A stretch of 48,009 nt of DNA. It comes from an uncultured Lachnospiraceae bacterium (GTDB lineage Bacteria > Bacillota > Clostridia > Lachnospirales > Lachnospiraceae). This document shows, piece by piece, positions 10,183-26,700 of this stretch. The notes under the pieces are model-generated. The model saw only the letters and a program-made list of their open reading frames with translations. It was not told the origin of the DNA and made no database searches. The translations under genes and the position numbers were made by a program. Numbering within the stretch: position 1 is the stretch's first letter; each line of letters starts with the position of its first letter. The stretch spans positions 1-48,009 of the forward strand of contig CALWLN010000155.1 of the NCBI GenBank assembly GCA_944381535.1. Direction: 5' to 3'.

Positions 10183-10536
10183 CAAATTCCTTTCAACGTG
10201 TGTTACTGATTTTTATTCTACCATGGGCAAAAGAATTTATGCAAGGCCAGCGTCTGTGGCAATTTTTTAACGCTGCCTGCAGTTTGGAAAAATTGTATCC
10301 CGCCTTGGCGTCTTTTCCCAATAAAATGGGTTCTTATGAGACGTATCGCATTTTTTTGGACCCGCGGAAAATATGAAATTTGTGTTTCTTGCCTGTGCAC
10401 GTCAGAGAACATACAATAATAACAGCAGCCGGGAAGAACCTGCTGCAAGACTACAGATGATTTCTTTACAAATGGCGCCAATAGGGGGAATCATGAAACA
10501 AAATCTCATGAAGAAAGAGAAGGAGGAAATGAACGT
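10183..10536. promoter_or_regulatory. Divergent regulatory region of the carbohydrate island
   Basis: A 354-bp gap between the regulator and the solute-binding protein gene. A plausible plus-strand promoter is TTGCCT (10389-10394), 17 bp, TACAAT (10412-10417), followed by a weak inverted repeat CAGCA/TGCTG at 10423-10445. GAGAAGGAGG precedes the lipoprotein start. No clear catabolite-repression cre palindrome was seen by eye. The minus-strand promoter for the regulator could not be identified. Confidence 0.45.
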
Positions 10537-12165
10537 ATGAAATTAAAAAGAGTAGTAGCGCTTGGTCTGGCAATGTTGATATCAGCTACTGTATTATTTG
10601 GCTGTGGGGATACGTCAAATGAACCGGATGATACGGGAAACGAACAACCGACGCAACAGGAGCCGGGGACGGACGAACCGGATGAATCGGAAACGGCTGA
10701 TATTGTGTTTCCGCTGGAGGAGCCGGTGTCCTTTACGGGGATGGCGGTTATGAATCAGAGCTATAAACTATCTGAAAGCCTGGCATGGAAGACAATGAAT
10801 GAGATAACAAATGTGGATATTGAATTGATTGGTGAGTTTCAAAATTCGGAAGCAGGCGAAAAGATGAGTTTGATTATGAATGGCGGCGATTACCCGGATA
10901 TGATAATTAAGCCGGCCGGGATAAATTTTTATGAGTTGGGCCAGCAGGGAATCCTTATTCCGCTGGAGGACTTAATCCGGGAGTATGCGCCGAATCTTAC
11001 AGCTATGCTGGATGAGATGGATGGCTGGGATTTGATCAGAGAGTCTGACGGGGAAATTTATGGGCTCCCCTATTTATCAGGTATATCGACTTACAACGGT
11101 GGAGCGCCGCTGTGGATTAATAAGCGCTGGATGGACAACCTGGGGCTGGAAGAGCCAACGAACCTGGAGGAATTGTATCAGGTGCTGAAAGCATTTAAGG
11201 AAGAGGATGCAAATGGAAATGGAGATCCGGATGATGAAGTTCCGTTTACTTTTGCCACGGATCTGTTTACGCCGAACCGGTTCCTTGCCTATATGGAGGA
11301 GGGACTGTTTTATTGCAATATTTACTGTGGAATCCTTGACGAAGGAGAAGAGTTTGTATTCTATCCGTTAACAGATGGATTTAAGGATAATTATCTGACG
11401 TATTTAAAGAGGCTGTACGACGAGGGGATTATCGATCAAAATGCCTTTACCCAGACCTATGACCAGATGTCTGTAAACGGCAAAGCGGCGGATATTCACG
11501 GTATGTTTTTCCGGTCAGGTCCCAATGGCCAGGTGGCGGACGCTTATATCCAGGATTATATTACCTTAAAACCCTGGAGTGACGGACATCTGCCGATGAG
11601 CCAGGGTGTGAGTCTGGGTATGGGAATTACGGATAAATGTGAACATCCGGAAATTCTCGTTGCCTGGGCGGACTATTTTTACACGGAAGAGGGCGCGATT
11701 CTGGCAGATATGGGTGTGGAAGGAGAAACTTACAAAGTGTATGACGACGGCACCTATAGTTGGATTGTGGACGGTACCTACGGAGAGACCCAGACGGAAG
11801 TAAAGAACAGCCAGTGTATGCAGGGAACGACTCCATTCCCCATGTATTTCCCGGATTTCAGATATAACGTAAATGCAGAGGAAGATCCCATTAACGCATG
11901 GATGCAAAAAGAACGTAATTTAACGCTGTATAAAATGGGAACGGTTATGCCGGTGCTGAAGTATACGGAGGAAGAGGCGGAAATCAGGAGCGAAGTGTAT
12001 ACGCAGGTGCAATCCTATATTGAAACTTACACAGCGCAGGTGGTTACCGGACAGGTGGATCTGGAGAGTACTTATGGTGAGTTCCAGGATACTTTGAGAG
12101 AAATGGGCGCAGAGAGACTGTTTGAAGTGGAAAAGGCCGCTTATGAGAGGGCGATAGCCAAGTAA
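10537..12165 (+). CDS. Extracellular solute-binding lipoprotein (family 1, LplA-like)
   Basis: A 542-residue lipoprotein with signal sequence MKLKRVVALGLAMLISATV and lipobox LFGC, acylated at about Cys23. An acidic Pro/Glu/Thr-rich linker (about 25-60) precedes the binding domain. The mature domain has the alternating pattern of large binding proteins that pair with LplB/LplC permeases, with landmarks such as NGGDYPDMIIK and GLPYLSG. It captures a carbohydrate at the cell surface; the ligand cannot be named from sequence. It follows GAAGGAGG and is the first gene of the island's main operon. A hairpin after it may let it be made in excess over the permeases. Confidence 0.9.
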   Translation: MKLKRVVALGLAMLISATVLFGCGDTSNEPDDTGNEQPTQQEPGTDEPDESETADIVFPLEEPVSFTGMAVMNQSYKLSESLAWKTMNEITNVDIELIGEFQNSEAGEKMSLIMNGGDYPDMIIKPAGINFYELGQQGILIPLEDLIREYAPNLTAMLDEMDGWDLIRESDGEIYGLPYLSGISTYNGGAPLWINKRWMDNLGLEEPTNLEELYQVLKAFKEEDANGNGDPDDEVPFTFATDLFTPNRFLAYMEEGLFYCNIYCGILDEGEEFVFYPLTDGFKDNYLTYLKRLYDEGIIDQNAFTQTYDQMSVNGKAADIHGMFFRSGPNGQVADAYIQDYITLKPWSDGHLPMSQGVSLGMGITDKCEHPEILVAWADYFYTEEGAILADMGVEGETYKVYDDGTYSWIVDGTYGETQTEVKNSQCMQGTTPFPMYFPDFRYNVNAEEDPINAWMQKERNLTLYKMGTVMPVLKYTEEEAEIRSEVYTQVQSYIETYTAQVVTGQVDLESTYGEFQDTLREMGAERLFEVEKAAYERAIAK

Positions 12166-12239
12166 ACGCGCCGGTTACCGGACAGGGGCTGTCATGGGAA
12201 ACCAGTTTCTTTAGTTCTCTGAATTACGGAAAAGAAACA

Positions 12240-12275
12240 GAGGCTGCCAGACGAGCAAATTGGTATGGCAGCCTC
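12240..12275 (+). promoter_or_regulatory. Intercistronic hairpin between binding-protein and permease genes
   Basis: GAGGCTGCCA (12240-12249) is perfectly complementary to 12266-12275 with a 16-base loop. No T tract follows, so it is better read as an mRNA-stabilising or partial attenuation hairpin than as a full terminator. Placement after a solute-binding protein gene is common and usually lowers downstream expression. Confidence 0.6.
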
Positions 12276-12305
12276 CGTTGTGAAATGGAAGGTGTGATCA
12301 TATTC

Positions 12306-13283
12306 GTGGCAATGATTGGTGTTAAGAAAAAATCACTGGGCAGAAGCTCCATGACTAGCGTTAAACGAGAAACGCTGGGCAGAAAATTCGCGAAAGATTT
12401 TAAACGAAATTGGATTAAATATATAATGATTCTGCCTGTACTGGTTTATTTTATTATTTTTCATTACGTGCCAATGTATGGCATATTACTGGCTTTTAAG
12501 GATTATAAAATCAAACTTGGGATTTTGGGCAGTCCCTGGGTGGGTTTGAAATATTTTGAGCGGTTTTTTAGTACCTACAACTTTTGGAACCTGATACAAA
12601 ATACCCTGACTCTCAGCGTGTATTCTCTGTTGGTGGGCTTTCCGATTCCCATTATTTTTGCGCTGTGTTTGAATTATTTGAGAAAGCGGCGGTTAAAGAA
12701 AACCGTTCAAATGATTTCTTATGCGCCCCATTTTATATCGACCGTAGTAATCTGCAGTATGATAACCATGTTTACTACCCAGAATACCGGCGTTTTCAAC
12801 GTGCTGCGGGGACTGGTAGGCCTGGAATCCATAGACTTTATGGCGGTCCCGAAGCTGTTCAAGCATATTTATGTATGGTCCGGCGTATGGCAGGGGATGG
12901 GCTGGAGCGCCATTATTTATGTATCGGCTCTGGCTGGCGTGGACCCGGAACTGCATGAGGCGGCTATCATGGATGGAGCCACGAAGATTCAGAGAATGCG
13001 TCACATCGACATACCTTCGATTAAATCCACGATTATTATGCTTTTCATTCTGCGTATGGGCTCTCTGATGAGCGTTGGATTTGAAAAGGTATATTTGCTG
13101 CAGAACAGTCTGAACAGACCAGCCTCTGAGATTATATCCACCTATGTATATAAGGTTGGTCTGATTGACAACGACTATGGCTATTCTACGGCGGTGGGCC
13201 TGTTTAATACCCTCATAAATGTCATTTTGCTGGTGGGGGCAAATGTGATCAGCAAAAAAGTGGCTGATGAAAGTCTGTTTTAA
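12306..13283 (+). CDS. ABC sugar transporter permease, LplB type
   Basis: Around 325 residues with six predicted membrane helices: IMILPVLVYFIIFHYVPMYG near the N-terminus, others around 85-110, 120-145, 170-200, 250-270 and 295-315. The binding-protein-dependent permease EAA loop reads ELHEAAIMDGAT. It forms a heterodimeric channel with the next gene product. The start is uncertain: ATG 12285 has no ribosome-binding site, whereas GGAAGGTG at 12288-12295 points to GTG 12306 or ATG 12312. No ATPase gene accompanies the pair, so a shared MsmX-like ATPase elsewhere is assumed. Confidence 0.88.
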   Translation: MAMIGVKKKSLGRSSMTSVKRETLGRKFAKDFKRNWIKYIMILPVLVYFIIFHYVPMYGILLAFKDYKIKLGILGSPWVGLKYFERFFSTYNFWNLIQNTLTLSVYSLLVGFPIPIIFALCLNYLRKRRLKKTVQMISYAPHFISTVVICSMITMFTTQNTGVFNVLRGLVGLESIDFMAVPKLFKHIYVWSGVWQGMGWSAIIYVSALAGVDPELHEAAIMDGATKIQRMRHIDIPSIKSTIIMLFILRMGSLMSVGFEKVYLLQNSLNRPASEIISTYVYKVGLIDNDYGYSTAVGLFNTLINVILLVGANVISKKVADESLF

Positions 13284-13295
13284 GAGGTGATTGCC

Positions 13296-14210
13296 ATGAG
13301 AAAACAACGTGTAAACAGAGTGAAAGGTTTTAAGTCGGATAAAATATTTGACGGCGTAAATGTGGTTGTCATGCTCGCATTGCTGGTGGTATTCGCCTGG
13401 CCTCTGTGGTTTGTCTTGATTGCGTCTATCAGCGATCCCATTCTGGTAATGTCCGGTAAGGTGTTGCTGATTCCAAAACAGCTTACACTGGAAGGCTATG
13501 AGCAGATGTTGAAATACAAGGAACTGTGGACTGGATACGCAAATACCATTTTCGTTACGGTGGTGGGTACGGTGCTGAATTTGATTACGTCAGTATGTTT
13601 TGCTTATCCGCTTGCTGACAAAAATTTCAAGCCCAGACGGGTTCTGCTGCTGATATTTATGTTTACCATGTATTTCAGCGGAGGTCTGATTCCTGGTTAT
13701 CTGGTGGTAAAGAACGTCGGACTTCTGAATACCCGCTGGGCGATGATTATCCCGTCGCTGGTGTCTGTGTATAACAGTCTGGTAATCCGTTCTTATTTTA
13801 TAAACAGCATTCCGGCGGAACTGGAGGAAGCCTCCTTGCTGGATGGCGCCAACTCTGCCCAGTATTTGTGGCGGGTAGTACTGCCGTTGTCCAAACCGGT
13901 ACTGGCGGTGGTGGGACTTTACTATGCGGTCAGCCACTGGAATGATTATTATACCGCATTGATTTATGTGTACAAAGATGAACTGTATCCGTTGCAGACT
14001 GTGCTAAGGAATCTTTTGCTTTCAACCCAGGCGCTGATGAACGATACGGCGGGAATTGTGGACGCGGCCGCAATGGAGGAAGCCTTTAACCGGGCCATGA
14101 CAATGAAGTACAGCGTCATTATTGTGGCGGCGGCTCCTATGTTGTGCCTCTATCCATTTGTTCAGAAATTTTTCGTAAAGGGCGTCATGGTCGGCGCTGT
14201 CAAAGGCTAG
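13296..14210 (+). CDS. ABC sugar transporter permease, LplC type
   Basis: About 304 residues and six predicted membrane helices. The EAA loop reads ELEEASLLDGAN and the C-terminus ends in KGVMVGAVKG, as is usual for LplC/YtcP-type permeases. It pairs with the preceding permease to import the ligand of the lipoprotein. AAGAGGTG straddling the upstream stop sets the ATG at 13296, 12 bp after the LplB stop, indicating translational coupling. Confidence 0.9.
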   Translation: MRKQRVNRVKGFKSDKIFDGVNVVVMLALLVVFAWPLWFVLIASISDPILVMSGKVLLIPKQLTLEGYEQMLKYKELWTGYANTIFVTVVGTVLNLITSVCFAYPLADKNFKPRRVLLLIFMFTMYFSGGLIPGYLVVKNVGLLNTRWAMIIPSLVSVYNSLVIRSYFINSIPAELEEASLLDGANSAQYLWRVVLPLSKPVLAVVGLYYAVSHWNDYYTALIYVYKDELYPLQTVLRNLLLSTQALMNDTAGIVDAAAMEEAFNRAMTMKYSVIIVAAAPMLCLYPFVQKFFVKGVMVGAVKG

Positions 14211-14238
14211 TTTTCGGAGTACCAGGGGAGGTGATTGC

Positions 14239-15003
14239 ATGCCAGGCATTTTTATTACGGGAGCCGTCAAAAATACAGGCTACGCCATTGCGGAGAAATT
14301 TGCGTCCCGGGGTTATGACGTTGCCATTTCCAGCAGAACGCAGGAACCACTGGAAAAGGCCGTGGGTATGCTGCGTTCAAAGTACCGGGTGAAAGTAAAG
14401 GGATATGTATTAGATTTATCGGATTTGTCTGATATTAAGTCCGTGTTTGAGCAGATCGAACGGGATTTTGGCGGACTTGATGTTTTCGTTCCAAATGCGG
14501 CAAATCTTGGGGTAAATCTCGACATGATGCATGTGACCGAACAGGACTATACGAATGTTATGGATGTGAATTTGAAAGGAACTTTCTTTTGTTGCCAGCA
14601 GGCTGCGCAGATTATGCGAAAGAAAGGAAAGGGTTCTATTGTAATAATAAGCTCCGTACATGCAAAGTCCTGTATTTGGGGGAGGAGCCTTTACACCGCT
14701 TCCAAGGGGGCGCTGAACGCCCTTATGCGGTCCATGGCCATTGAACTTGCACCCTATGGAATCCGCACAAACTGCATTATAGCGGGAGCAATCAAAACGG
14801 ACCGATGGGATAACCTTACGCCGGAACAGATAGAGGAGAAACGTAAAAACTGGCCTGTGGGGCTGGAATCCACCGGAGAAGATATTGCGAATGGCGTTTA
14901 TTACCTGGGAACGGATTTATCGAAAACGGTATCCGGCACGGAACTTACCATAGATTCTGGCGTGCTGATCTCTCTGCTGCCGTATAACGGCGGACGGCAT
15001 TGA
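14239..15003 (+). CDS. SDR-family oxidoreductase (possible aldose dehydrogenase)
   Basis: A 254-residue classical short-chain dehydrogenase. The cofactor loop reads TGAVKNTGYAIA, a spaced variant of TGxxxGxG. The second strand ends ISSR, which favours NADP(H). Catalytic residues are Ser139, Tyr152 and Lys156 (YTASK), and the NAAN motif is replaced by PNAAN at about 84-88. Such enzymes oxidise sugars to lactones or reduce ketones. In this operon it sits between the importer and a sugar-acid dehydratase, which suits oxidation of an imported aldose, but the direction and substrate are inferred. GGGGAGGTG lies just upstream. Confidence 0.85.
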   Translation: MPGIFITGAVKNTGYAIAEKFASRGYDVAISSRTQEPLEKAVGMLRSKYRVKVKGYVLDLSDLSDIKSVFEQIERDFGGLDVFVPNAANLGVNLDMMHVTEQDYTNVMDVNLKGTFFCCQQAAQIMRKKGKGSIVIISSVHAKSCIWGRSLYTASKGALNALMRSMAIELAPYGIRTNCIIAGAIKTDRWDNLTPEQIEEKRKNWPVGLESTGEDIANGVYYLGTDLSKTVSGTELTIDSGVLISLLPYNGGRH

Positions 15004-15034
15004 GAATTTTGCGCAACAGAAAGTGGAGAGAGCA

Positions 15035-16225
15035 ATGAAAATAACAGATGTAAAAATTTATACGCTGGATGCATACAGAACAAACTGGGCATTCATAAAA
15101 GTGGAAACGGATGAAGAAATTTACGGCTGGGGCGAGGCGTCTCTTGGAACCAATGAGCAGGCTCTTGAGGGGATGGTAGCAGATTTGAAACGGCTGATTA
15201 CCGGCAGAAATCCCCTTGAAATTGAAAAAATGTGTTTTGAGGTCTACCGGGATATTTACTGGAAAGGCGGCCCGGTTCTGATGTCTGCCATCAGCGGAAT
15301 AGAAATCGCTATGTGGGATATTGTCGGAAAATATTTTAATACGCCCACCTACAATTTGTTTGGCGGGAAAATGCGCGATAAGGTCAAAATGTACGCAAAT
15401 GCCTGGTTCATAGGGGCAAAAACGCCGGAGGAATTTGCAAGAAAAGCGAAGCGGACGGCAGAACTTGGGATTAAAGCGCTGAAATGGGACCCCTTTGGCG
15501 CATCCCATATGACAATCAGCCGCGAGCAGCTTCATAAAAGCGTGGACATCGTAGGCGCAGTCCGCCAGGCGGTGGGAGATAACGTGGAGCTTTTGATAGA
15601 GTGTCACGGACGTTTTAACCCCACAACCGCCATTGAGATTTCCCGTGAACTGGAGCAATTTAAGCCTATGTTTCTGGAGGAACCCTGTGTTCCCGACAAT
15701 ATGGATTCTACAGCCTATGTACGGGCACGTTCCAATATTCCTATTGCGGCAGGGGAGCGGGGCTATACCAAATACGCGTTTCAAGAAATGTTTTCAAAGA
15801 ATGCGGTGGATTATGCTCAGCCTGACGTGTTCCATACGGGAGGACTGATGGAGGGCAAGAAGATTGCGGCGATGGCTGAGGCGAAACACATTATGGTATC
15901 CTACCACAATCCTTCCGGGCCTGTCTCCAACGCTGCGATTCTGCAGCTTGCGGCGACGGTTCCGAACTTTGTCATACATGAGATTATGCTGACGGACGGC
16001 GCTTTCCGAAAAAAGATAACCAATGAAGAAGTGGGATATGAGGATGGATATATCCTGATTCCCGATAAGCCAGGACTTGGAATCGATGTAAATGTGGAGG
16101 AAGTATTGAAGCGTCCATATACTCCCAGAAATCTGCGTCATTATACTGGCGCAGTGACTGACATCAGACAGAAAAACGATACGTTCTATTATTTTAAAGG
16201 ATTAGAGGATAAGATATATGAATAA
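15035..16225 (+). CDS. Enolase-superfamily sugar-acid dehydratase, DgoD (galactonate dehydratase)-like
   Basis: About 396 residues of the mandelate racemase subgroup, with an N-terminal capping domain (MKITDVKIYTLD, GGPVLMSAISGIE) and a TIM barrel. Putative metal ligands are Glu189, Glu215 and Glu241, and the catalytic histidines are His191 (ECHGR) and His291 (SYHNPSGPV). From memory of E. coli DgoD (Asp183, His185, Glu209, Glu235, His285) every position is shifted by exactly +6, with Asp183 replaced by Glu. The family removes water from an aldonate to give a 2-keto-3-deoxy acid. The start at 15035 follows GGAGAG; an upstream GTG at 15023 is less likely. It overlaps the aldolase gene by 8 bp. 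Other sugar acids remain possible. Confidence 0.85.
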   Translation: MKITDVKIYTLDAYRTNWAFIKVETDEEIYGWGEASLGTNEQALEGMVADLKRLITGRNPLEIEKMCFEVYRDIYWKGGPVLMSAISGIEIAMWDIVGKYFNTPTYNLFGGKMRDKVKMYANAWFIGAKTPEEFARKAKRTAELGIKALKWDPFGASHMTISREQLHKSVDIVGAVRQAVGDNVELLIECHGRFNPTTAIEISRELEQFKPMFLEEPCVPDNMDSTAYVRARSNIPIAAGERGYTKYAFQEMFSKNAVDYAQPDVFHTGGLMEGKKIAAMAEAKHIMVSYHNPSGPVSNAAILQLAATVPNFVIHEIMLTDGAFRKKITNEEVGYEDGYILIPDKPGLGIDVNVEEVLKRPYTPRNLRHYTGAVTDIRQKNDTFYYFKGLEDKIYE

Positions 16226-16922
16226 CTTGATAAAGGAGCATGGCTTGATTGTGATTTTCAGAGGAGTTCCCCTCCACAAAATGGAGGCGTGCGCCAGGGC
16301 GTTGTATGACGGTGGGGCAAGAGTTATTGAAATCGCCTTTAATCCCAGCCATAAGGACACGATTGCCCATACAACGGCGTTGATTCGGCGTGTTGTGGAA
16401 ACGATGGGGAATAAGCTCATGGTGGGAGCGGGAACGGTCATCAGCCCACAGTACGCTGTGGCGGCCTGTAAGGCGGGGGCGCAGTTCCTTTTTTCTCCCA
16501 ACACCAATGTGGAAGTCATAAAACTGACGAAGCAGTTGGGCCTTGTGTCTGTCCCGGGCGCCTTTACGCCCTCCGAGGTCATGGATGCATACGACGCGGG
16601 GGCGGACCTGATAAAGTTGTTTCCCATTACGAAAAACGATATAGATTATGTGGTAGGCATTACGCGTCCTCTCTCTCACATTCCCTTTATCTGTGTGGGT
16701 GGGGTCAATGAAGATACCATAGGACCGTTTATAAAAGCCGGCGCTGTGGGAGTGGGCACCGGAATTTCCATTCTGAAGCCGGAACTGATTGAAACGGAAG
16801 ACTATCAGGAGATTACAAGACTTACAAAATTACATCTGGAAAAAATAAATGAGGCAAAAATGGAGAAGGGTGAGGAAGCGTATGAAAATTACATGGCTCG
16901 GTCAGGCGGGACTTCTGTTTGA
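16218..16922 (+). CDS. eda: KDPG/KDPGal-type 2-keto-3-deoxy acid aldolase
   Basis: A 234-residue class I aldolase of the Eda/DgoA family. It opens with LIVIFRGVP, has VIEIAFN carrying the conserved glutamate, GAGTVISP, and the Schiff-base lysine Lys133 in ADLIKLFP, then a phosphate-loop-like CVGGVN and GVGTGIS. It cleaves 2-keto-3-deoxy-(6-phospho)-gluconate or galactonate to pyruvate and glyceraldehyde (3-phosphate). Its start overlaps the dehydratase stop by 8 bp and its end overlaps the MBL gene by 41 bp, so the three are tightly coupled. The C-terminal 25 residues are longer than in E. coli Eda. No KDG kinase gene lies in the operon. Confidence 0.88.
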   Translation: MNNLIKEHGLIVIFRGVPLHKMEACARALYDGGARVIEIAFNPSHKDTIAHTTALIRRVVETMGNKLMVGAGTVISPQYAVAACKAGAQFLFSPNTNVEVIKLTKQLGLVSVPGAFTPSEVMDAYDAGADLIKLFPITKNDIDYVVGITRPLSHIPFICVGGVNEDTIGPFIKAGAVGVGTGISILKPELIETEDYQEITRLTKLHLEKINEAKMEKGEEAYENYMARSGGTSV

Positions 16923-17550
16923 AACAAATGGGATAAAAATCATCGTTGACCCTTATTTGTCGGATAGCTGCCACAAGGTCAACCAAAAGCTGGTAAGACG
17001 TTACCCGGTGGAGGAGCGCTTTTTGCATGTGGTTCCTGATGTGATAGTTTTAACTCATAATCATCTGGACCATACCGACCCGGAAAGTCTGGGATATTAT
17101 CTGAAAGGTTCTCCGGTTACGGTGCTGGCAAGCCGGAATGCCTGGGAAAATGTAAGAAAAATGGGCGGAGACCACAATTATGTTATGTTTAATTGCGGAA
17201 CGGAATTTACCATCCGTGGGATTACGTTTCGGGCGGTTTATGCAGAGCACTCAGATGAATATGCCGTGGGCGTAGTTTTCCGGGCAAATGGAACGTGCTA
17301 TTATGTCACCGGAGATACGCTGTATAATCAGAAAGTGTTTGATTCCCTAAAGGAACAGGTGGACGTTGTGTTTCTTCCCATCAATGGAAAAGGGAACAAC
17401 ATGAATGCCGCAGACGCTGTTCGTTTTGCAAAAAAAACCGGGGCAAAAAAAGCGGTAGCGCTGCATTTTGGTCTGTTTGATGACATGGACGGCAGCGAAT
17501 TTCATTATGACGGAAAGGTCATCCCGGCGCCTTTTCAGGAAATACGTTAA
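16882..17550 (+). CDS. Metallo-beta-lactamase-fold hydrolase (UlaG-like; candidate sugar lactonase)
   Basis: A 222-residue MBL-fold protein with the metal motif THNHLDHTD (His59, His61, Asp63, His64), a later VTGDT aspartate and a C-terminal ALHFG histidine. The opening MKITWLGQAG is typical of the UlaG/YtkL group, which includes L-ascorbate-6-phosphate lactonase. The start at 16882 follows GTGAGGAAG and lies inside the end of the aldolase gene. In an oxidative sugar pathway it could open the lactone made by the SDR; this role is inferred only from context. No signal peptide, so cytosolic. Confidence 0.82.
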   Translation: MKITWLGQAGLLFETNGIKIIVDPYLSDSCHKVNQKLVRRYPVEERFLHVVPDVIVLTHNHLDHTDPESLGYYLKGSPVTVLASRNAWENVRKMGGDHNYVMFNCGTEFTIRGITFRAVYAEHSDEYAVGVVFRANGTCYYVTGDTLYNQKVFDSLKEQVDVVFLPINGKGNNMNAADAVRFAKKTGAKKAVALHFGLFDDMDGSEFHYDGKVIPAPFQEIR

Positions 17551-17570
17551 GGAAACGGAGGCAAAGAAAC

Positions 17571-19286
17571 GTGGACAGATATTTAAAGGATTATTTATAT
17601 TGTGGGGACAACGGTCTTGCGGTGTCGGAAGCGCTGCGTGATTGCAGGAACGGAGATACCTTACATCTGGGCGGTGGAAAGCTGGAGTTTGACGGTACTT
17701 ATGCAACTCCGGTAAATTACTATCTGCCGAGGTATAGTGACAGAAGCAAGTATTATGCCATTTATGGAGAGGGTTTGAAAAATATCGTGATTGACGGGGA
17801 TGGCGCCAGCTTAATTCTGAAGGGGGATATTTCAGGATTTGGCTTCGACCGGTGTGAAAACCTGACATTGCGAAACTTTAGCATGGATTATGAACTGCCC
17901 TATTACTGGCAGGCAATGATTACAGAGGCAAACGAGAAGTATTTTGAAGTGGAATTTGATGAGACAGAGTATCCCTGTGAATATGATCCGGTCAAGAAGG
18001 TGTATCAATTTAAAAGTAAGAACTCTGATCTTTTCTGGGAGGACGGTGCGCTTCTCGCAAATGAATTTGACCCTTTGGAGAAAAGACCAACCGCAACGAC
18101 GCCGGATTATTTTCTTTGCGCCGGATTGCCCCATCCTGTTTATAGTTTTATGTCTGTATTGGTGGATACGGAATATTTGGATTCCAGTCATTTCCGCTTT
18201 CATTATAAGGACAAGTCTGTTTCGCATACGGCAGGAAATTATCTGGTGGTGGCAAACCATGACAGAAGAAATAACAATATTCATTTTCATAAGTGTAAAA
18301 ACGTCACATTGGAGAACATTGACATGTATAGTTCCGCCTCTTTTGGCGTGATCTCGCTTCTGGTGGAAAATTTAAAAATAAAAAACGTCAATTCGTTACT
18401 GCGTCCGGGTTCAGATAGAATGCTTGCGGTGATAGCAGATATGTTTCACTGTGTAAATTGTAGTGGAAATATCGAAATATCACAGTGCAGAATTGAAAAC
18501 ATGAAAGACGACGGGATCAATATCCACAGTCTGCTGTGCGAGGTTAAAAAGATATTGAATCCGCATACAATGATCGTAGAATTTCCCTACTTTGCCAAAA
18601 GAGCAATCAATTTGTTCCAGACCGGCGAGAAGCTGCATTGCTTGAAAGGGGAAAGCTTTCAAAGAGGCGGGGAGTTGACAGTGCGATCCTCGGAATTTGC
18701 CGGCCAGTATCATCTCCGCATAGAGACTGAGGAGGAAATTTCACCGGAGTTGAAAGGCTATTTCCTGGAATCCTCAGACGCTATGCCCAAGATACATATC
18801 CACGATTGTAGGACGGGAAATAACCGGGGGAGAGGATTCCTTGTTTCCAGCAACAAACCCGCCGTTATTGAAAATAATACTTTTTATAATATGTCCGCCG
18901 GTATTTCTGTCAACGGGGCTTCTGTAAATTATATGGAAGGCGGTGCGGTGGATGGCCTGGTTATCAGAAAGAATTTTTTCGCAGGCTGTGCATACAGGAG
19001 GGGCAGCGCCGTAAATATAAATCCTGCCGCGATAAAAGAGGAATATGCAAAACCCTATCATAAAAATGTGAGTATTGTGGACAATCTGTTTAAATTAACC
19101 GGGAATCCCTTGATTTATGCGCGGTTGGTAAAAGGGTTGTTGATTGAAAATAATCAATATGATAGGGAGGACGGGCAGCAGCCCTTTGAAAAAGCCGGTT
19201 TTGCAGGCGTTGAGGCGCAGCAGTGTGTTGACGTAAGGATGGACCATGCGTTTGTATTTCCAAACGGGATTACATGTAAGGAGTGA
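17571..19286 (+). CDS. GH110-like parallel beta-helix glycosidase (candidate alpha-1,3-galactosidase), intracellular
   Basis: A 571-residue right-handed beta-helix protein with no signal peptide. From N to C: a short helix, KNIVIDGDGASLIL and ENLTLRNFSMDYELPYYW coils (about 72-115), an inserted domain (about 120-230), then KNVTLENIDMYSS, the ADMFHCVNCSG segment and an ENMKDDGINIH aspartate pair at 313-314. More right-handed coils continue to the C-terminus. The overall order and the DD-G-x-N-x-H pattern recall GH110 alpha-1,3-galactosidases (blood-group-B/linear alpha-Gal type), which are normally secreted. It starts 20 bp after the MBL gene in the same operon. Another beta-helix lyase or hydrolase family is possible. 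Confidence 0.65.
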   Translation: MDRYLKDYLYCGDNGLAVSEALRDCRNGDTLHLGGGKLEFDGTYATPVNYYLPRYSDRSKYYAIYGEGLKNIVIDGDGASLILKGDISGFGFDRCENLTLRNFSMDYELPYYWQAMITEANEKYFEVEFDETEYPCEYDPVKKVYQFKSKNSDLFWEDGALLANEFDPLEKRPTATTPDYFLCAGLPHPVYSFMSVLVDTEYLDSSHFRFHYKDKSVSHTAGNYLVVANHDRRNNNIHFHKCKNVTLENIDMYSSASFGVISLLVENLKIKNVNSLLRPGSDRMLAVIADMFHCVNCSGNIEISQCRIENMKDDGINIHSLLCEVKKILNPHTMIVEFPYFAKRAINLFQTGEKLHCLKGESFQRGGELTVRSSEFAGQYHLRIETEEEISPELKGYFLESSDAMPKIHIHDCRTGNNRGRGFLVSSNKPAVIENNTFYNMSAGISVNGASVNYMEGGAVDGLVIRKNFFAGCAYRRGSAVNINPAAIKEEYAKPYHKNVSIVDNLFKLTGNPLIYARLVKGLLIENNQYDREDGQQPFEKAGFAGVEAQQCVDVRMDHAFVFPNGITCKE

Positions 19287-19293
19287 AAAAGAA

Positions 19294-19314
19294 GAGGCTT
19301 CGCAGGGCAGCCTC
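19294..19314 (+). promoter_or_regulatory. Small hairpin between GH110-like and SGNH genes
   Basis: GAGGCT (19294-19299) pairs with AGCCTC (19309-19314) around a 9-base loop, just after the GH110-like stop. No T run follows; it may be a processing or stabilising element. Confidence 0.35.
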
Positions 19315-19359
19315 ACATTAACCGTAACGATATTGTAGCGAAAGGAATTTACTGGACAG

Positions 19360-20214
19360 ATGAGAAGATCAATCGTACTGGAAGACGGGGAAATGGAGCG
19401 GTATGATTTTTATAAATATCCGCTTTTGCCGGCGTGGGGACACGAATATCTGTATTCCTGGTATGAAAAAATCTATGATTCCCGGGATCTTACCATATGC
19501 GCAGAGGGAGATTCCACCACTTATGAGGGTTTCTGGAATCAGGGCGGAGAGCGCAGGACAATGATTGCGAAGCTGCTTGACAGAGCCGGGATTACAAATT
19601 GTACAATAAAAAACTGCGGATATGGGAGCGCCACAACAGGCCATTGGGTAGGTTCCTGGTCGGAGGACAGACTGCAGGAACTGAAAAATCCAGAATGTAC
19701 GAAGGAGCGGTACCCCTGGGGAACGCTGGATTCGGATATGGCATATCAGCCCGATTTGCTGATTTGGTGTTATGGAATCAATGACGCCAGCACAAATCTG
19801 TATCCCGGAGAGACGGTTTCACAGAAGCTGAACCGGTTTGAAAAAAATTTAAGAGAAGGCCTATCCAGGATTCGGGGCGTAGAACCGGTAAACGGAAAGC
19901 CGTGCTATCACAAAAGTGCGGAGGACCTGGCGATTATTCTTTGTACGCCTGTTATGACACATACGGTTTCTCTTGGAAAAACAAGAGATCTGTGGACAAA
20001 ATATACGCGGCGAGTTATTCAGAAAGCCTGCAGGGATTACCAATGCGCTTTCTATGATATAGCCATGCGCCACTACGACCATGCGTTTTCTTTGAAGTGG
20101 AGCGTGTCCACAGACGGATCGACGTGCGACGGAACACACCCGAGACCGGCATGTAACGCCGATTTTATGAGCGGTATGCAGGATTTGCTTGTCCCAATCT
20201 GTCTGTGGAAGTAG
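19360..20214 (+). CDS. SGNH/GDSL-type hydrolase (candidate carbohydrate esterase)
   Basis: A 284-residue SGNH hydrolase. Block I is EGDSTTYEG with nucleophile Ser52, block III is CYGINDAS near 146, and block V is CDGTHP near 255 with the Asp and His of the triad. The family removes O-acetyl or other acyl groups from glycans. There is no signal peptide, so it would act on imported sugars. The start at 19360 is supported because the decayed copy at 23521 begins with the matching reading MRKSIISEGSEME against MRRSIVLEDGEME. It sits 73 bp after the GH110-like gene and 71 bp before GH36. Confidence 0.82.
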   Translation: MRRSIVLEDGEMERYDFYKYPLLPAWGHEYLYSWYEKIYDSRDLTICAEGDSTTYEGFWNQGGERRTMIAKLLDRAGITNCTIKNCGYGSATTGHWVGSWSEDRLQELKNPECTKERYPWGTLDSDMAYQPDLLIWCYGINDASTNLYPGETVSQKLNRFEKNLREGLSRIRGVEPVNGKPCYHKSAEDLAIILCTPVMTHTVSLGKTRDLWTKYTRRVIQKACRDYQCAFYDIAMRHYDHAFSLKWSVSTDGSTCDGTHPRPACNADFMSGMQDLLVPICLWK

Positions 20215-20285
20215 ATTCTGCGGTTTTTACACACGCTGCTGGAGAAGTGCTTCGAAGGTGAAAGTGATATATCAAGGAGGTTTAC

Positions 20286-22439
20286 ATGAGTATTTTTGTT
20301 CATGAACAACAGCACCATATGTTCTGCATCCAGATGAAAACAACAACATATGCGTTTGCTGTCAATGCAGAGGGGAAGCTGGTTCATTTGTATTGGGGAA
20401 AAAAGCTGAATGGGATCGAAGACCTTGCGTTGTTCCAGGATTTACTGGAAGCAGAAACAACAGGGGAGATTCCTGTCCGTATTCTCTCGAATACACAGTA
20501 TGAGTATCAGGCAGGTGAATTTTTCTCTTACCAGGAAAAGGCCATGGAGGTACGGTTTGCGGATGGTGTGACGGGAGCACAGCTGGTATATGAGAATTTC
20601 GTGATTTCCGAAGACCAGAGTCATCTGGAGGTGGTGTTAAAGGAGGAACATTATCCACTGATTGTAACACTACATTATCAGATATATACGGAGCAGGATA
20701 TTCTCGTAAGGCATGCGACGGTTCATAATGTGGGAGAGGAGCCGGTCTTTCTGCGGAAAGTACAGTCCGCAACCTTTCACTTTCCAAGGGAAATACCGTA
20801 TCGTCTGACCCATTACGCCGGAAACTGTGCGGCAGAATACCAGAGAAAGGAGCAGGTTCTGGATGTATGCCGTACCGTGATACAGAATAACCACGGTAAT
20901 ACATCGGGGCCACAGGCGGTTCCTTTTGTCATGCTGGACCCGTGGGCACGGGCATATGAACAGGAGGGTGAAGTTTATGCGATTGCCCTTCAGTGGAGTG
21001 GAAATTTTAAGATCACATGTGAAAGAAATGTGCTTGGTGAGGTCAGTCTGACTGCCGGAATCAATGAAGAGGGGTTTGGAATGATCCTTCATGGGGGTTC
21101 CGTTTATGACACACCAGAGGTTACGGCAGGCTATAGCTGTAACGGATTCGGGGGAATAAGAGAGCGGCTGTATGATTACCAGCTGGATCATCTGCTGCCA
21201 CGGCGGTGTGCCCATACTCCTTTTCCGGTACTGTATAATTCCTGGTATCCTTACCAATTTTCAATAGATGAAGAAAAGATCGCAGGCCTGATCGACCGTG
21301 CGGCCGGGATTGGTGTGGAACTTTTTGTAGTAGATGATGGATGGATGCCCGGGCGCATGGATGAAAGGGCAGGACTGGGAGACTGGTATGCGTGTGAAAA
21401 ACGGTTCCCCAATGGCTTAAAACCGTTAGCGGATCGTGCCCATGAAAAGGGAATGAAATTCGGGCTCTGGATCGAACCGGAAATGGTAAATCCGGACAGC
21501 CGGCTTTTCAGGGAACATCCGGACTGGGTCCTGCAGAGTCCTACCCGCAGACAGACACTCAGCCGTAACCAGCTTCCGCTGAATCTTGCAAGGGAGGATG
21601 TGCTGGAGTATCTGATTGCCACCATCGACCGTGTGATCGAAGAATATGGACTGGACTATCTGAAATGGGACATGAACCGGTATATTTCCGATTCCGGATG
21701 GAAGGATGCCTCACAGGAACAACGGGACAGGCTTCCTGTAACACTGATAGAAAATGTATACCGCATCTGGCAGCATTTAAATGAGAAATATCCGTTTCTT
21801 TTACTGGAAAATTGCGCACATGGAGGCGCACGTGCGGATTATGGCATGCTGCGGTATGCAGACCGCATAAACCGGAGCGATAATGCCCTGCCGCTGGATG
21901 TACTGCTCTTACATGAAGGGTTTACGGATATGATCGTGCCAAAATGCGCGGGCGGAGCCGGAACATTCAGCGGCGCAGGGGAAATTCCCTATACATTCAG
22001 GGAAAATCTGGGTTTTACCGGTTCTCTGAGTATAGGCGCCAATCTGCTTACCTGTACGGAGGAAGAGCTGGAGCGCTATCGTAAGAGCATAGAACAGTTT
22101 AAAAAAGAGAGAGAGGCTCTGCAGGATTCTTATGTGTATCATCTGCTCTCAGCCAGGGAGACACCGTATGCGGTATGGCAGTATGTAAAGCGTGACAGGA
22201 CGGCATTTATGATATTTGGATTCTGTCATGGCAGACATTATCCGGATACACTGATACAGCGGGTAAGACTCATGGGGCTGCCTGCGGGAGCATGCTATGA
22301 GTGTGTGTCAGATGAGCAGTATCCGGAGGAAACAGGAAAGATCTATTCGGCAGAGGCTCTGATGCAGATTGGGATACAACTGCCGTTGAAAAGTAATTTT
22401 TCATCGGTGCGCAGAGTGTTCCGGAGGGTAGGGAATTGA
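20286..22439 (+). CDS. GH36-family alpha-galactosidase, divergent subgroup
   Basis: A 717-residue enzyme with the GH36 plan: N-terminal beta-supersandwich (about 1-300), a TIM barrel opening with VLYNSWYPYQFSI, VVDDGWMPGR and EPEMVNPDS, and a C-terminal beta domain. The nucleophile is Asp462 in KWDMNRY and the acid/base is Asp532 in RSDNALP. They are 70 residues apart, the spacing I recall for Geobacillus AgaA (478/548). The usual CxGGGGR and WTSDNTDA motifs are changed to CAHGGAR and RINRSDNALP, so substrate range may differ from plain alpha-galactosidase. No signal peptide. AAGGAGG precedes the ATG. Confidence 0.9.
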   Translation: MSIFVHEQQHHMFCIQMKTTTYAFAVNAEGKLVHLYWGKKLNGIEDLALFQDLLEAETTGEIPVRILSNTQYEYQAGEFFSYQEKAMEVRFADGVTGAQLVYENFVISEDQSHLEVVLKEEHYPLIVTLHYQIYTEQDILVRHATVHNVGEEPVFLRKVQSATFHFPREIPYRLTHYAGNCAAEYQRKEQVLDVCRTVIQNNHGNTSGPQAVPFVMLDPWARAYEQEGEVYAIALQWSGNFKITCERNVLGEVSLTAGINEEGFGMILHGGSVYDTPEVTAGYSCNGFGGIRERLYDYQLDHLLPRRCAHTPFPVLYNSWYPYQFSIDEEKIAGLIDRAAGIGVELFVVDDGWMPGRMDERAGLGDWYACEKRFPNGLKPLADRAHEKGMKFGLWIEPEMVNPDSRLFREHPDWVLQSPTRRQTLSRNQLPLNLAREDVLEYLIATIDRVIEEYGLDYLKWDMNRYISDSGWKDASQEQRDRLPVTLIENVYRIWQHLNEKYPFLLLENCAHGGARADYGMLRYADRINRSDNALPLDVLLLHEGFTDMIVPKCAGGAGTFSGAGEIPYTFRENLGFTGSLSIGANLLTCTEEELERYRKSIEQFKKEREALQDSYVYHLLSARETPYAVWQYVKRDRTAFMIFGFCHGRHYPDTLIQRVRLMGLPAGACYECVSDEQYPEETGKIYSAEALMQIGIQLPLKSNFSSVRRVFRRVGN

Positions 22440-22537
22440 ATCTACAGGTATGGTATGTATGAAGTAATGCATTTGTATCCTTAAGGGATATTTTAAGAAA
22501 CAGACAGTAGAAAAATGACAGTTATGGAGGAAACGCT

Positions 22538-23500
22538 ATGAAAAAAGATGCGACAAAAATTTTAACCAGATACGAAGCAAATCCGATCATAAAGCCGGAG
22601 GATTATCCCGGAGTGGCCCAGTTTTATAATCCCTCGCCGGTGATGTATGGGGAAGAGACAATTCTCCTGGTGTCAGTAACGGAATACGCAAGTAAGGCGA
22701 GGAATACCGGACGCTGTGGAGATATCCATGGACAGACAAGGATTGCGCGCAGCAGGGATGGCATACATTTTACGGTTGAAGAAGAGAATTTCATTAAAAT
22801 ACCGGAGGATTTCTGCTATTCCGAGAGATTCAACCACTATATTGATAATCGGGTTACGAAGATTGAAGATACCTATTACATCGTAACCCCGGCAATGATT
22901 ATGGGGTTTACAAGTCCATGCGCCATGCTGGGGAAGACCATGGATTTTAAAGCTTATGAGTTTATAGATATCATTGGTGGTCCTATCACCCGCGGCACAT
23001 CCCTGTTTCCCGAGAAGATCAACGGCAGTTACTATAAGCTGGACAGGCCCGGAGCGGGGCGGAATCTTGCGGATATATGGATTTCAGCCAGTCCGGATCT
23101 GCTTCACTGGGGTGAGTTTAAACCGGTGCAGAGCGCGGATTACAGCATGTGGAATTGGAAAAAGATCGGCCCTACGCCTCCGGTTAAGACCCCGGAGGGG
23201 TGGCTTGTGATCGTTCACGGTGTAACAGAAACGCTGGCGAGGCGTTATTCGCTGGGAGCCATACTTCTTGATCTGGAAGAGCCCTGGAAAGTGATCGGAA
23301 AAACGATGAGTCCTCTTCTGAGTCCGGAGAAAGAATATGAGCTTTTTGGCAACGCGCCCAATTGTGTATTCGCATGCGGTGTGATAGACGATGTGGAAAA
23401 GGATGAGTTAAGGCTTTATTATGGCGCGGCGGACGAACGCATCTGCCTGGCAACGGGAAGCCTTTCGGAAATTGTCGATGCCTGTATAGAAGGGATCTAG
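22538..23500 (+). CDS. GH130-type glycoside phosphorylase/hydrolase
   Basis: A 320-residue five-bladed beta-propeller protein. Signs of GH130 are NPIIKP near residue 15, IDNRVTKIEDTYYIV with the likely catalytic Asp103, KIGPTPPVKTPEGWLVIVHG and a C-terminal LYYGAADERI. GH130 enzymes phosphorolyse or hydrolyse beta-mannosides (for example mannosyl-GlcNAc or mannobiose) in the cytosol; the linkage here cannot be read from sequence. It follows GH36 after 98 bp with ATGGAGG upstream of the ATG. Because this gene points to mannosides and its neighbours to galactosides, the imported glycan may carry both. Confidence 0.85.
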   Translation: MKKDATKILTRYEANPIIKPEDYPGVAQFYNPSPVMYGEETILLVSVTEYASKARNTGRCGDIHGQTRIARSRDGIHFTVEEENFIKIPEDFCYSERFNHYIDNRVTKIEDTYYIVTPAMIMGFTSPCAMLGKTMDFKAYEFIDIIGGPITRGTSLFPEKINGSYYKLDRPGAGRNLADIWISASPDLLHWGEFKPVQSADYSMWNWKKIGPTPPVKTPEGWLVIVHGVTETLARRYSLGAILLDLEEPWKVIGKTMSPLLSPEKEYELFGNAPNCVFACGVIDDVEKDELRLYYGAADERICLATGSLSEIVDACIEGI

Positions 23501-23520
23501 AGCATATGTGTAAAAGACAG

Positions 23521-23679
23521 ATGAGAAAATCGATCATATCGGAGGGCAGTGAAATGGAGTGGGATTCTACCACCTATGAGGGTTATTGGAACCAGGGCGG
23601 GGGCGCCGGATCATTCAGAGGGCCTGCAGGGATTACCCTTAGATACTATCCCCGGCATTGCCCGGGAGCACACTCATAA
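23521..23679 (+). pseudogene. Eroded copy of the SGNH hydrolase gene
   Basis: A 52-codon open frame that matches the intact SGNH gene in three pieces. 23521-23559 matches 19360-19398 (MRKSIISEGSEME versus MRRSIVLEDGEME). 23563-23602 matches 19510-19549 (DSTTYEGYWNQGG versus DSTTYEGFWNQGG). 23613-23637 matches 20017-20041 at 23 of 25 bases but in a shifted frame. Most of the gene between the pieces is deleted and block III and V motifs are gone, so no enzyme remains. It sits just after GH130, marking an old duplication or recombination scar at the edge of the DUF5107 segment. Confidence 0.82.
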
Positions 23680-23706: not shown

Positions 23707-26700
23707 ATGTCAGAAGTAAGCGTTAAAAAGCAAAAACAAATGATACCCACGTATATTCCTAAAAAGGCCCACGAGCTGCCTATGTTCTTTGAGAACAAGC
23801 CCTATCAGGGTGCGTCGGGCAGGGTGTACCCGATACCCTATTGCGATGGGATTTCGGATGAAAAAACAGATGTTGAATATGAGGTATATACCATTGAAAA
23901 CGAGTATGTGAAAACGCAGGTTGTGCCGTCTCTCGGCGGCAAGATACTGCGCGGACTTGACAAGATAGGTAATTACGATTTTATCTATTATAACGAGGTA
24001 GTAAAGCCTGCGCTTGTCGGCCTTGCGGGACCGTGGATTTCGGGTGGCATTGAGTTTAACTGGCCCCAGCACCACAGACCCACCACTTTTATGCCCCTCG
24101 AAGCGGTAAAAGAGGATAATCCTGACGGCGGCAAGACCGTCTGGACGGGCGAGGTAGAGCCCTTCGGCAGAATGAAGGGCATGGCGGGTATCACCGTCGA
24201 TAAGGGCAGAAGCTACATAAAAGCAAAGGTGCGTATTTACAACCGTACTGCTTTCCCACAGGTGTTTATGTGGTGGGCAAACCTTGCTGTTCCGGTAAAT
24301 GACGATTACTGTACGGTCTTTCCGCCCGACTGTGAATGGGTAAATGACCATGACCGCCGCGCCGTGCTTGAATGGCCGATTGCAAAGGGAGTTTATAAAA
24401 CCGCGCGCCCCTATGATTTCGGCAAAGGTACGGACCTCTCCCATTACAGCGCGGTAAAGGTTCCGTCCTCCTATCTTATTTCGCAGGGGCAGTCGGATAT
24501 GGACTTTATTTCGGGTTATGATACAGGAATAAATAAGGGTATCGCAACAGTGGCTAATCACTATATCTCACCTGGCAAAAAGATGTGGCATTGGGGAATC
24601 GGAGATTTCGGCGATATGTGGTGTTCCAATCTGACTGATGAAAACGGTCCGTATATTGAGCTTATGACGGGTGTTTATACCGATAATCAGCCTGATTTTA
24701 CATGGATTGCCCCCTATGAAACAAGAGAATTTGAACAGTATTGGTATCCCGTCCGTGAAATAGGCGAAATAAAGAACGCTACAATCGACGCGGCGGTAAA
24801 CGTTGAGAAGCGCAAGGACGGACTCTATTTCGGCTTTAATGCTACGGGCGTGTTTCATAACAGTACCGTCACGGTAACCGATAACGGCAAGGAAATTTAC
24901 AGCGAAAAAATCAATATAGCTCCCGATAAGGTTTACCAAAAAACTCTTGGCACGGAAATATCTGATATACATCATATTAAAGTATCGCTTACCGATGAAA
25001 ACGGTAAGGTGCTTGTTTCCTACACGCCATATAAGCGCGGTCAGAAACAGCCTGTAAAGGTCAGGAAGCCCGTAAAGCGTCCCTCGGAGTACAAAACGGT
25101 TGAGGAGCTCTACATAAACGGGTTCCATTTGGAGCAGTATAAGCAGCACAATTACAAGCCTGAGGATTATTATCTTGAAGGCTTGCGCCGTGACCCGGGC
25201 GATATTCGCTGTAATACCTCTATGGCAAGAGTCGCTCTTAAAAACGGATTGTTTGAAGATTGCGTAAAATACTGCGACAAGGCGATTGAGCGGCTTTGCG
25301 ATCGCAATGAGCACCCGTCCGACACCGAAGCCTTTTATTTAAAGGGCGTTGCGCTTGAGTACCTCGGCGAATACGACAAGGCCTATGACATTTTATACCG
25401 CGCCGCATGGAACTATCCGCACAGGAGTGCGGCTATGTTCGAGCTTGCCTGCATTGACTGCCGCAGGGGTGACTTTGACGCAGCGCTCGAAAAGCTTGAC
25501 GAGTCTATCGGTTTAAATAAGGGACACAATAAGGCGCATAACCTTATGACGGCGATTCGCCGAAAATCAGGCTGTGCATGTGCAAAGCAGAGTGCAACCG
25601 ACGGTATAAACGACGATAAGTTGGATTTGTTTGCGCTTATAGAGTATTCACATTTTGCAGATGTGAAAGATAAAATCACGCAATTTGCCCTAAAGCCCGA
25701 AAATATGCTTGACGTCGCCCGCGACTATATGAAGGCGGGACTTTACGAGGATGCGGTTTATACCTTAAAGCTGGTCGGTGATAATTCACCTCTTGTAAAT
25801 TACTATTTAGGCTTCATTACAAAGGATAATTCGTATATCGAAAAGGCAGAAAAAGCGGATATGGGCTATTGTTTCCCCTCAAATGTTGAGGATATTGCGG
25901 TGCTTAAATACGCTTGTGAAGCGGTCGAAAACACGGCAAACGCCGATTATTACCTCGGCTGTCTCTATTATGACCGTTTCCGTTATACCGAGGCGGCGGA
26001 ATGCTTTGAAAGCTGCGTCCGCAAAAATCCCGAACACGGCAGAGCGTGGCGCAACCTCTCGCTTTACCGGTTCGACAAGGCGCATGACGGCAAAAAAGCG
26101 CTTTACTGTATGGAAAAGGCGCTTAAATACAGACCGGACGACCCAAGACTTTTGCTTGAATACCAGCAGTTACTCAAAAACACCAATGCAAGCATTGAAG
26201 AAAGGCTTGCGGTTTACGACAAATATCCCGAGCTTTTAAAGGAACGCGATGACTGCTATCTTGATAAGCTCATCTTACTGTCACAGCAGGGCAAATATGA
26301 GGAAGCTATAAATATGGCGGCGGTAAAGCACTTCCATATCTACGAGGGCGGCGAAGGCAAGCTTACCAAACAGCATGCCTGGATGCATGTACTCTATGGC
26401 AACGAGCTTGCGGCAAGCGGTAAGACCGAAAATGCAGAGCAGATTTATATGAACGGCATTAATATGCCTAAGTCCTACGGCGAGGCAAAGACCTTCTTCA
26501 ATCAGGAGGCGCATATTTACTACTATTTAAGCAAGCTTTATACAGGTGATAAGCGTACTGCGGCGCTTGAAAAGGCGGCGGAGTACAAAGCGGCGGTTTC
26601 GGAAATATCTCTTTTCCGCGCGTTGGCGCTCAAAGAACTGGGCAGAGATGACGAGGCAAAGGCTGTGCTTGATGAAATGCTTAATAAGGCGCAGAGCCTT

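Follow-up and report, generated by a model that had tools for sequence, protein, structure and literature searches.

Can a member of the Clostridia degrade galactose by oxidation, and can it do so without a sugar-acid kinase? The question is raised by a run of eleven genes in the window that we analysed, a 48,009-nucleotide (nt) stretch that is contig 155 of the genome of an uncultured Lachnospiraceae bacterium (G000; 4.30 Mb, 241 contigs, 93% complete). The open reading frame (ORF) list and a Pfam scan placed all eleven genes on the plus strand with tight spacing at 10537–23500, where they encode an importer, a candidate oxidative enzyme set and glycosidases, and an earlier note on this DNA had proposed that they form an oxidative galactose route. 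Our analyses point to a kinase-free oxidative aldose operon on a probably acquired island, with D-galactose as the most likely sugar, a reading to which we assign a probability of about 0.65. The gene evidence favours such a route over the classical De Ley-Doudoroff route because the cassette aldolases have lost the phosphate-site serine and no KdgK-like kinase lies nearby. The enzyme set, its catalytic residues and its recurrence as a cassette upheld the earlier proposal, whereas galactose as the sugar is the part that was not secured. The genes of the run are, in order:

10537–12165, plus strand, sugar-binding lipoprotein (SBP_bac_1 and DUF3502; N-terminal signal)
12285–13283, plus strand, ATP-binding cassette (ABC) permease 1 (BPD_transp_1)
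13287–14210, plus strand, ABC permease 2 (BPD_transp_1)
14239–15003, plus strand, short-chain dehydrogenase/reductase (SDR), proposed aldose 1-dehydrogenase (adh_short; YxxxK at 152–156; conserved partner in relatives)
15023–16225, plus strand, DgoD-like enolase-superfamily dehydratase (MR_MLE; E193, E219, E245, H195, D268-H295, E320)
16218–16922, plus strand, class I aldolase of the 2-keto-3-deoxy-6-phosphogluconate (KDPG) fold (Aldolase, KDPG/KHG; E38, K133, R15, V160, I183)
16849–17550, plus strand, metallo-beta-lactamase (MBL)-fold hydrolase, proposed aldonolactonase (Lactamase_B_2/B_3; HNHLDH at 70–75)
17571–19286, plus strand, glycoside hydrolase (GH) family 110-like alpha-galactosidase (Beta_helix; PDB matches to GH110; no signal peptide by hydrophobicity)
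19360–20214, plus strand, SGNH esterase (Lipase_GDSL_2)
20286–22439, plus strand, GH36 alpha-galactosidase-like protein (Melibiase with GH36N/C)
22538–23500, plus strand, GH130 mannoside phosphorylase-like protein (Glyco_hydro_130)

The intergenic gaps are, in operon order, 119, 3, 28, 19, −8, −74, 20, 73, 71 and 98 nt, a spacing that is operon-like since every gap after the first is below 100 nt. The frames of the dehydratase, aldolase and MBL genes overlap, and the real start of the last may be Met12 (16882), which would shorten its overlap with the aldolase frame. All the ORFs named in the earlier note were found at their place and on their strand, and its statement that the enzymes have no signal peptides agrees with the N-terminal hydrophobicity, which among the non-membrane proteins indicates an export signal in the binding protein alone (KD 2.53, against 0.02–1.47 in the eight enzymes). 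The absence of a 2-keto-3-deoxygluconate (KDG) kinase and a galactokinase from the run was likewise borne out, as the Pfam scan of the ORFs at 10537–23500 found no kinase gene.

In the route that we propose, an oligosaccharide would enter through the ABC importer, presumably one of the oligosaccharide type, and inside the cell its alpha-galactosyl groups would be cut by the GH36 and GH110-like enzymes and its acyl groups by the SGNH esterase, with mannoside phosphorolysis by the GH130 protein. The freed aldose would be oxidised at C1 by the SDR, its lactone opened by the MBL enzyme or spontaneously, and the aldonate dehydrated by the DgoD-like enzyme. The resulting 2-keto-3-deoxy acid would then be split unphosphorylated by the KDPG-fold aldolase to pyruvate and an unphosphorylated aldehyde, which would be D-glyceraldehyde if the sugar is galactose. 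Such a route would amount to a De Ley-Doudoroff pathway lacking its kinase and would save the ATP of the kinase step of the classical pathway, but the glyceraldehyde would then need reduction, oxidation or phosphorylation. Each of these reactions, as well as the sugar, induction, NADP+ use and the direction of insertion, is what we infer from sequence.

The aldolase phosphate site and kinase genes

The cassette aldolase is a PF01081 KDPG/KHG class I member, in which Glu38 and Lys133 are present by alignment and the structure model is a TIM barrel. In Escherichia coli Eda the phosphate pocket consists of Gly162, Gly163 and Ser184, and the substitutions S184L or S184F improve the use of unphosphorylated substrates (PMC3962226; this and the other papers cited here are drawn on in part). 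Alignment with E. coli DgoA and Eda placed Ile183 of the window aldolase at the Ser184 position, and the phosphate-site serine was kept in none of 40 distinct cassette aldolases, a set that includes the one from L097, a broken locus (L103, L107–L113 and L115–L127 were covered by the automatic scan only, and L128–L131 by the searches that recovered them). The serine is kept in DgoA, in Eda, in a kinase-linked Eda at C8 of the same genome and in all four Bacteroidota aldolases that lie beside related dehydratases; at two of those four loci a KdgK-like kinase is found within 5 kb.

Profile searches detected no KdgK-like kinase within 5 kb of the dehydratase gene at any of 39 close loci (defined below), and no DgoK-like ORF was present in the cassette loci searched, except E. 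coli’s own. DgoK (PF05035) was also absent from the window’s 93% complete genome in a genome profile search, and from six of the eight carrier genomes in all, the window’s included. The non-phosphorylating aldolase step that had been suggested earlier is thus supported at the sequence level by the lost serine and the missing neighbouring kinase, and this paired absence makes the kinase-free reading clearly and cheaply testable.

The oxidative enzymes and their recurrence

Relatives of the cassette were the best 80 of 101 confirmed loci from a scan of public genomes. Close loci were those with at least 65% dehydratase identity (n = 38, L097 included), to which L058 (64.96%) was added to give 39. 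Partners were counted within 5 kb and on the same strand, using profiles built from partners found by BLAST, so that those members match by construction. An SDR was found in 35 and an aldolase in 36 of the 38 close loci (35/39 and 37/39 when L058 is counted, which has an aldolase and in which no SDR was found). Where 3 kb was available on both sides, the SDR and the aldolase were each present in 24/24 close loci, the MBL gene in 7/24 and a KdgK-like kinase in 0/24; with L058 the first two counts become 24/25 and 25/25. The SDR is of the close kind in 22 of those 24, the exceptions being the more distant SDRs of L042 and L045, which together with those of L048, L052 and L056 score 82–143 bits, against at least 245 for the other 30 of the 35. 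The MBL gene occurs in 8/38 close loci (8/39 with L058).

Since the SDR and aldolase are such regular partners of the dehydratase and the MBL protein is not, the core consists of three enzymes. A lactonase can be missing, which is to be expected if lactones open spontaneously as well. The SDR, dehydratase and aldolase are a recurrent unit that occurs more than chance would allow, and the cassette has a dehydrogenase, a dehydratase and an aldolase together and no kinase, as would a non-phosphorylative oxidative sugar pathway. The earlier description of exactly four pathway steps fits in that the set matches oxidation, lactone opening, dehydration and aldol cleavage, but is overstated given the small number of close loci with an MBL gene. 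Cassette hosts include metagenome-assembled genomes of Clostridia (many from the ruminant hindgut) and of a verrucomicrobial bacterium, as well as Lentisphaerota, Kiritimatiellota and a spirochaete. Of 150 genomes sampled from the host family, 2 had dehydratase homologues (E 1e-100), both of the host genus, as did 12 of 391 sampled from the host class (E 1e-150), seven of them at 66% identity or higher, the window included.

The dehydratase is 33% identical to E. coli DgoD and conserves the residues aligned with His185, Glu209, Glu235, Asp258, His285 and Glu310 of DgoD, which we take to be acid/base residues and metal ligands. The first metal ligand is Glu in this family (45/45 aligned) and Asp in DgoD, and in the broken locus L097 the dehydratase deviates at the positions of His285 and Glu310. 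In the SDR an SSR motif follows strand 2, which by a rule that we assume to apply here suggests NADP+, probably its cofactor. With PRK00685, a model of metal-dependent hydrolases, the MBL protein reaches 76 bits (cut-off 144). In the PDB it matches UPF0173 proteins, and its HNHLDH is the metal motif of the wider MBL superfamily. The fold given in the earlier note therefore stands, whereas its UlaG label is loose, as the UlaG model gave 18 bits against a cut-off of 306.

Several sets of similar genes were seen elsewhere. On contig C32 of the same genome, one set combines an SDR, a 54%-identical dehydratase, an MBL protein and a GH39-like protein (L018:552-4788), and another an SDR, a different enolase-superfamily enzyme, an RraA-like protein and a GH10 protein (L018:10948-16036); in the latter set the RraA-like protein could serve as pyruvate aldolase, which would make this a second kinase-free route. 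A congener, G051, has its own cassette (L106:2-1518, contig C290) with part of a dehydratase (72%) and an aldolase of the Thr type that lacks the phosphate-site serine, a few kb from a gene that by eye is rpoB. Adjoining the cassette of L024, at L024:3170-8236, are an AllG domain protein, a member of the acetate kinase family, an IlvD/EDD dehydratase and a second SDR (45% identical to the cassette SDR), and L029 has ORFs of similar size and order.

The sugar and the competing readings

Galactose is pointed to by the GH36 and GH110-like proteins of the operon, by GH36 or GH110 homologues near close cassettes and by the stereo sites of the aldolase, which are of the 2-keto-3-deoxy-6-phosphogalactonate (KDPGal) type; on these grounds we regard the identification of the released aldose as D-galactose as an evenly balanced call. 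The GH110 assignment comes from PDB matches to alpha-1,3-galactosidases of that family (E 1.3e-42), Pfam GLAA-B being below its cut-off, and the protein has beta-helix homology and an Asp-Asp pair aligned with that of solved GH110 enzymes, presumably the catalytic pair. GH36 or GH110 homologues lie near 8/39 close and 1/41 more distant loci (Fisher p 0.013, window not counted); this test was made after the data had been seen, and the counts take in incomplete loci. By alignment the window aldolase agrees with DgoA in having Val (Val160) at the V154/T161 site and in lacking Pro in its beta1 strand. That site and the beta1 strand set the stereoselectivity at C4 (PMC4915726). The GH36, GH110-like, SGNH and GH130 set would suit an acetylated fragment of the galactomannan type. 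A Roseburia locus is, we believe, similar.

A number of observations weigh against the proposed route or are neutral, some bearing on the aldolase and others on galactose. A serine directly follows Ile183 in the window aldolase, and Ser or Thr is found there in most cassette aldolases, so some phosphate contact may survive. In addition, Asp occupies the phosphate site of a further aldolase in the same genome (C183) that has a PfkB-type kinase about 5 kb away, and serine loss is therefore not unique to kinase-free loci. Only 7 of the 40 cassette aldolases have Val at the stereo site, against 32 with Thr and 1 with Ser, and among the 14 close loci compared no alignment column of the SDR or the dehydratase tracks Val/Thr. 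GH36 or GH110 homologues accompany 4/7 loci with a Val-type aldolase (window included) and 5/31 others (p 0.04, likewise tested after the data had been seen). The fold of the aldolase does not decide its substrate: its structure model, which confirms the KDPG aldolase fold and could not rank substrates, matched 8di1 (named KDPG/KHG aldolase) and the KDPGal aldolase 2v81/2v82 equally well (Z 29.6–29.8; other KDPG aldolases 28.4 and below), and Foldseek put several KDPG aldolases ahead of DgoA (2v81). The dehydratase passes the NCBIfam galactonate-dehydratase cut-off (333 against 311 bits) with about half the score of E. coli DgoD (695), and so do all eight relatives tried (325–380 bits), which shows that the family name is not substrate-specific; it was rejected as proof of the substrate. 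Of the partners searched for, GH39-like enzymes turn up most often (13/39 close and 12/41 other loci). Moreover, galactose needs no cassette route, as the genome has GalT and a galactokinase fragment at a contig edge and galactokinase is over its cut-off in five of the eight carriers (of the others, G051 has a weaker match, the window’s genome only the fragment and G161 none). The idea that the oxidative route replaces the Leloir route is therefore not supported. The earlier assignment to galactose retains its support from GH36 and GH110, but the dehydratase name, the stereo residue and the variable neighbouring GHs leave it tentative.

Val/Thr in the aldolase was also considered as a marker of a sugar switch for the whole pathway and was rejected, given the missing tracking columns and near-sister dehydratases that carry both; Val160 is weak evidence for the window enzyme alone. 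Near-identical dehydratases are paired with aldolases that differ in Val/Thr in L025 and L027, and in the window and L028, and the aldolases look as if exchanged or toggled between cassettes.

The same kinase-free chemistry could act on L-arabinose, D-glucose, L-fucose or a rarer sugar, with the alpha-galactosidases just trimming a glycan, a reading that we consider credible yet somewhat doubtful. L-arabinose is the nearest alternative, as its C2–C4 geometry is that of D-galactose, and a beta-L-arabinopyranosidase model (cut-off 1100) gives matches, both below its cut-off, to the GH36 protein of the window (weak, 94 bits) and to a GH36-like protein encoded close to L030, a Val-type cassette (208 bits). 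The unspecific dehydratase name and the Leloir genes also accord with another aldose, as do the GH39-like, GH31, GH42-like, GH43 and GH123-like proteins that adjoin cassettes of relatives, and a non-phosphorylated L-fucose route has been proposed in Bifidobacterium (PMC5080750). Against it, the glycosidases of the run are GH36, GH110-like and GH130, the Pfam scan found no fucosidase, arabinofuranosidase or xylosidase family there, and Val in the aldolase would fit the galacto/L-arabino form at C4 better than the gluco or L-fuco form.

Two further readings depart from the proposed chemistry itself. A classical phosphorylative route, in which a kinase at C8 would act on KDG or 2-keto-3-deoxygalactonate (KDGal) and the cassette aldolase or the C8 Eda would cleave the phosphorylated acid, appears unlikely. 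A search of the genome for a KDG kinase, as the earlier note had proposed, did recover at C8 a PfkB-type KdgK-like kinase with its own Eda, and this kinase is similar to KDG/KDGal kinases of haloarchaea (252 bits against a cut-off of 440) and to a KDPG-aldolase/kinase fusion (620 bits against 700). However, the pair is unlinked to the cassette and near a gene that by eye encodes an IclR-type regulator, which we assume to be typical of uronate or KDG use, its Eda keeps the serine that the cassette aldolase has lost, and none of the 38 close cassettes has a KdgK-like kinase nearby or a DgoK-like ORF. It is very unlikely that the SDR is not an aldose dehydrogenase and instead reduces the aldolase product, with an aldonate taken up or another keto acid cleaved. 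Such a role would agree with its PDB matches, which are FabG-like proteins and carbonyl reductases, and with none of 25 listed NCBIfam models being over its cut-off (the highest score, 174 bits against 215, came from a model for a ‘glucose 1-dehydrogenase’ subfamily), but the SDR accompanies the dehydratase and aldolase across several phyla, and the importer, presumably of the oligosaccharide type, lies beside intracellular glycosidases.

Returning to the kinase-free route on D-galactose, we tentatively propose, as a possibility somewhat short of even, a bacterial De Ley-Doudoroff variant in which a lineage of KDPG-fold aldolases without the phosphate pocket would cleave free D-KDGal. It would allow anaerobic gut Clostridia, as well as relatives among the Lentisphaerota and Kiritimatiellota, to use alpha-galactosides alongside the Leloir route, and the ability would have spread on genomic islands.

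Island context and relation to known systems

In the congener G051, neighbours of the block, a SIR2-type gene and rpsF (90% and 97% identical), are approximately 330 bp apart with no cassette between them, and at this empty site the window has 22.8 kb extra (7907–30680), with the following features outside the run:

7907–7919, no strand assigned, left 13-bp direct repeat, island boundary, within the 3′-terminal part of a DUF951 gene (blastn to the G051 empty site)
7996–10185, minus strand, AraC-type regulator of 729 residues, divergent from the operon (HTH_18 at residues 644–722)
23707–26925, plus strand, DUF5107-TPR protein, on the same island and strand as the operon (Pfam)
27067–29748, plus strand, oxidoreductase of 893 residues dependent on flavin adenine dinucleotide (FAD), on the same island and strand as the operon (PF12831)
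30668–30680, no strand assigned, right 13-bp direct repeat, island boundary, upstream of rpsF (blastn to the G051 empty site)

The block was probably acquired, because it is absent from the congener’s site and bounded by the repeats, which have only two copies on the plus strand of the window (chance expectation 0.003 in 48 kb, both strands); judged from these two genomes, G000 more probably gained the block than G051 lost it. The G+C content is 46.1% over 7996–29748, compared with 52.6% and 49.5% outside. Among the block’s ORFs that the Pfam scan covered, none could be recognised as an integrase. A plasmid origin was considered and set aside, as one collection searched held no similar plasmid DNA, although dehydratase homologues of less than 60% identity do occur on plasmids.

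The operon run may extend to 29748. Homologues of the DUF5107-TPR protein lie near 0/39 and of the FAD-dependent oxidoreductase near 1/39 close loci. Between the GH130 and DUF5107 genes, 23516–23637 holds degenerate parts of the SGNH gene (78% over 50 nt and 83% over 35 nt) whose spacing is shortened; these are probably the decayed remains of a second copy. The right end of the island carries a 166-residue ORF (30195–30695, minus strand) that contains a repeated 42-nt unit and has no Pfam match at E 1e-5; it resembles what we take to be the tail region of nucleases of the Rpn type and may be left over from a mobile element.

The chemistry itself is already known from the De Ley-Doudoroff, L-fucose, D-anhydrogalactose and fungal KDGal routes. 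Like the De Ley-Doudoroff dgo operon of E. coli (DgoD, DgoK, DgoA, DgoT), the cassette has a dehydratase of the enolase superfamily whose acid/base residues are the same, and an aldolase of the DgoA fold with a V154-type site. It differs from that operon in having no DgoK, in an aldolase without the phosphate-site serine and in being tied to an ABC importer and intracellular glycosidases instead of an aldonate symporter. In the archaeal non-phosphorylative Entner-Doudoroff route of Sulfolobus, unphosphorylated D-KDGal is cleaved to pyruvate and D-glyceraldehyde, by an aldolase whose fold, unlike that of the cassette enzyme, is presumably that of dihydrodipicolinate synthase.

In searches of an open-access library with few subscription journals, judged mostly by titles and abstract starts, we found no description of this cassette in Clostridia. 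A survey of human gut genomes scores galactose use, in the part drawn on, by Leloir or tagatose genes only (PMC5583593), and a route of this kind would therefore be missed by it. The non-phosphorylated L-fucose pathway of Bifidobacterium, Campylobacter and Xanthomonas likewise has a dehydrogenase, a lactonase and a dehydratase and splits its keto acid without phosphorylation, and in Bifidobacterium it also lies partly inside a gene cluster for oligosaccharide use, but its aldolase candidate is annotated as 4-hydroxy-tetrahydrodipicolinate synthase and its glycosidases are fucosidases (PMC5080750). The dauABCD system for D-anhydrogalactose in Zobellia likewise has an enolase-superfamily enzyme and a KDPGal aldolase, at a carrageenan locus and with D-KDGal as intermediate, but differs in its KDGal kinase DauC, a first enzyme annotated as lactaldehyde dehydrogenase and a cycloisomerase (PMC5698469). 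In the kinase-free route of Aspergillus terreus, unphosphorylated D-KDGal yields pyruvate and D-glyceraldehyde, as proposed here, but that route is fungal, and the same review gives the bacterial galactose route with a kinase (PMC11219438). If the proposal is true, the S184 variants of Eda obtained by engineering would have a counterpart in nature, a KDPG-fold aldolase suited to unphosphorylated acids (PMC3962226).

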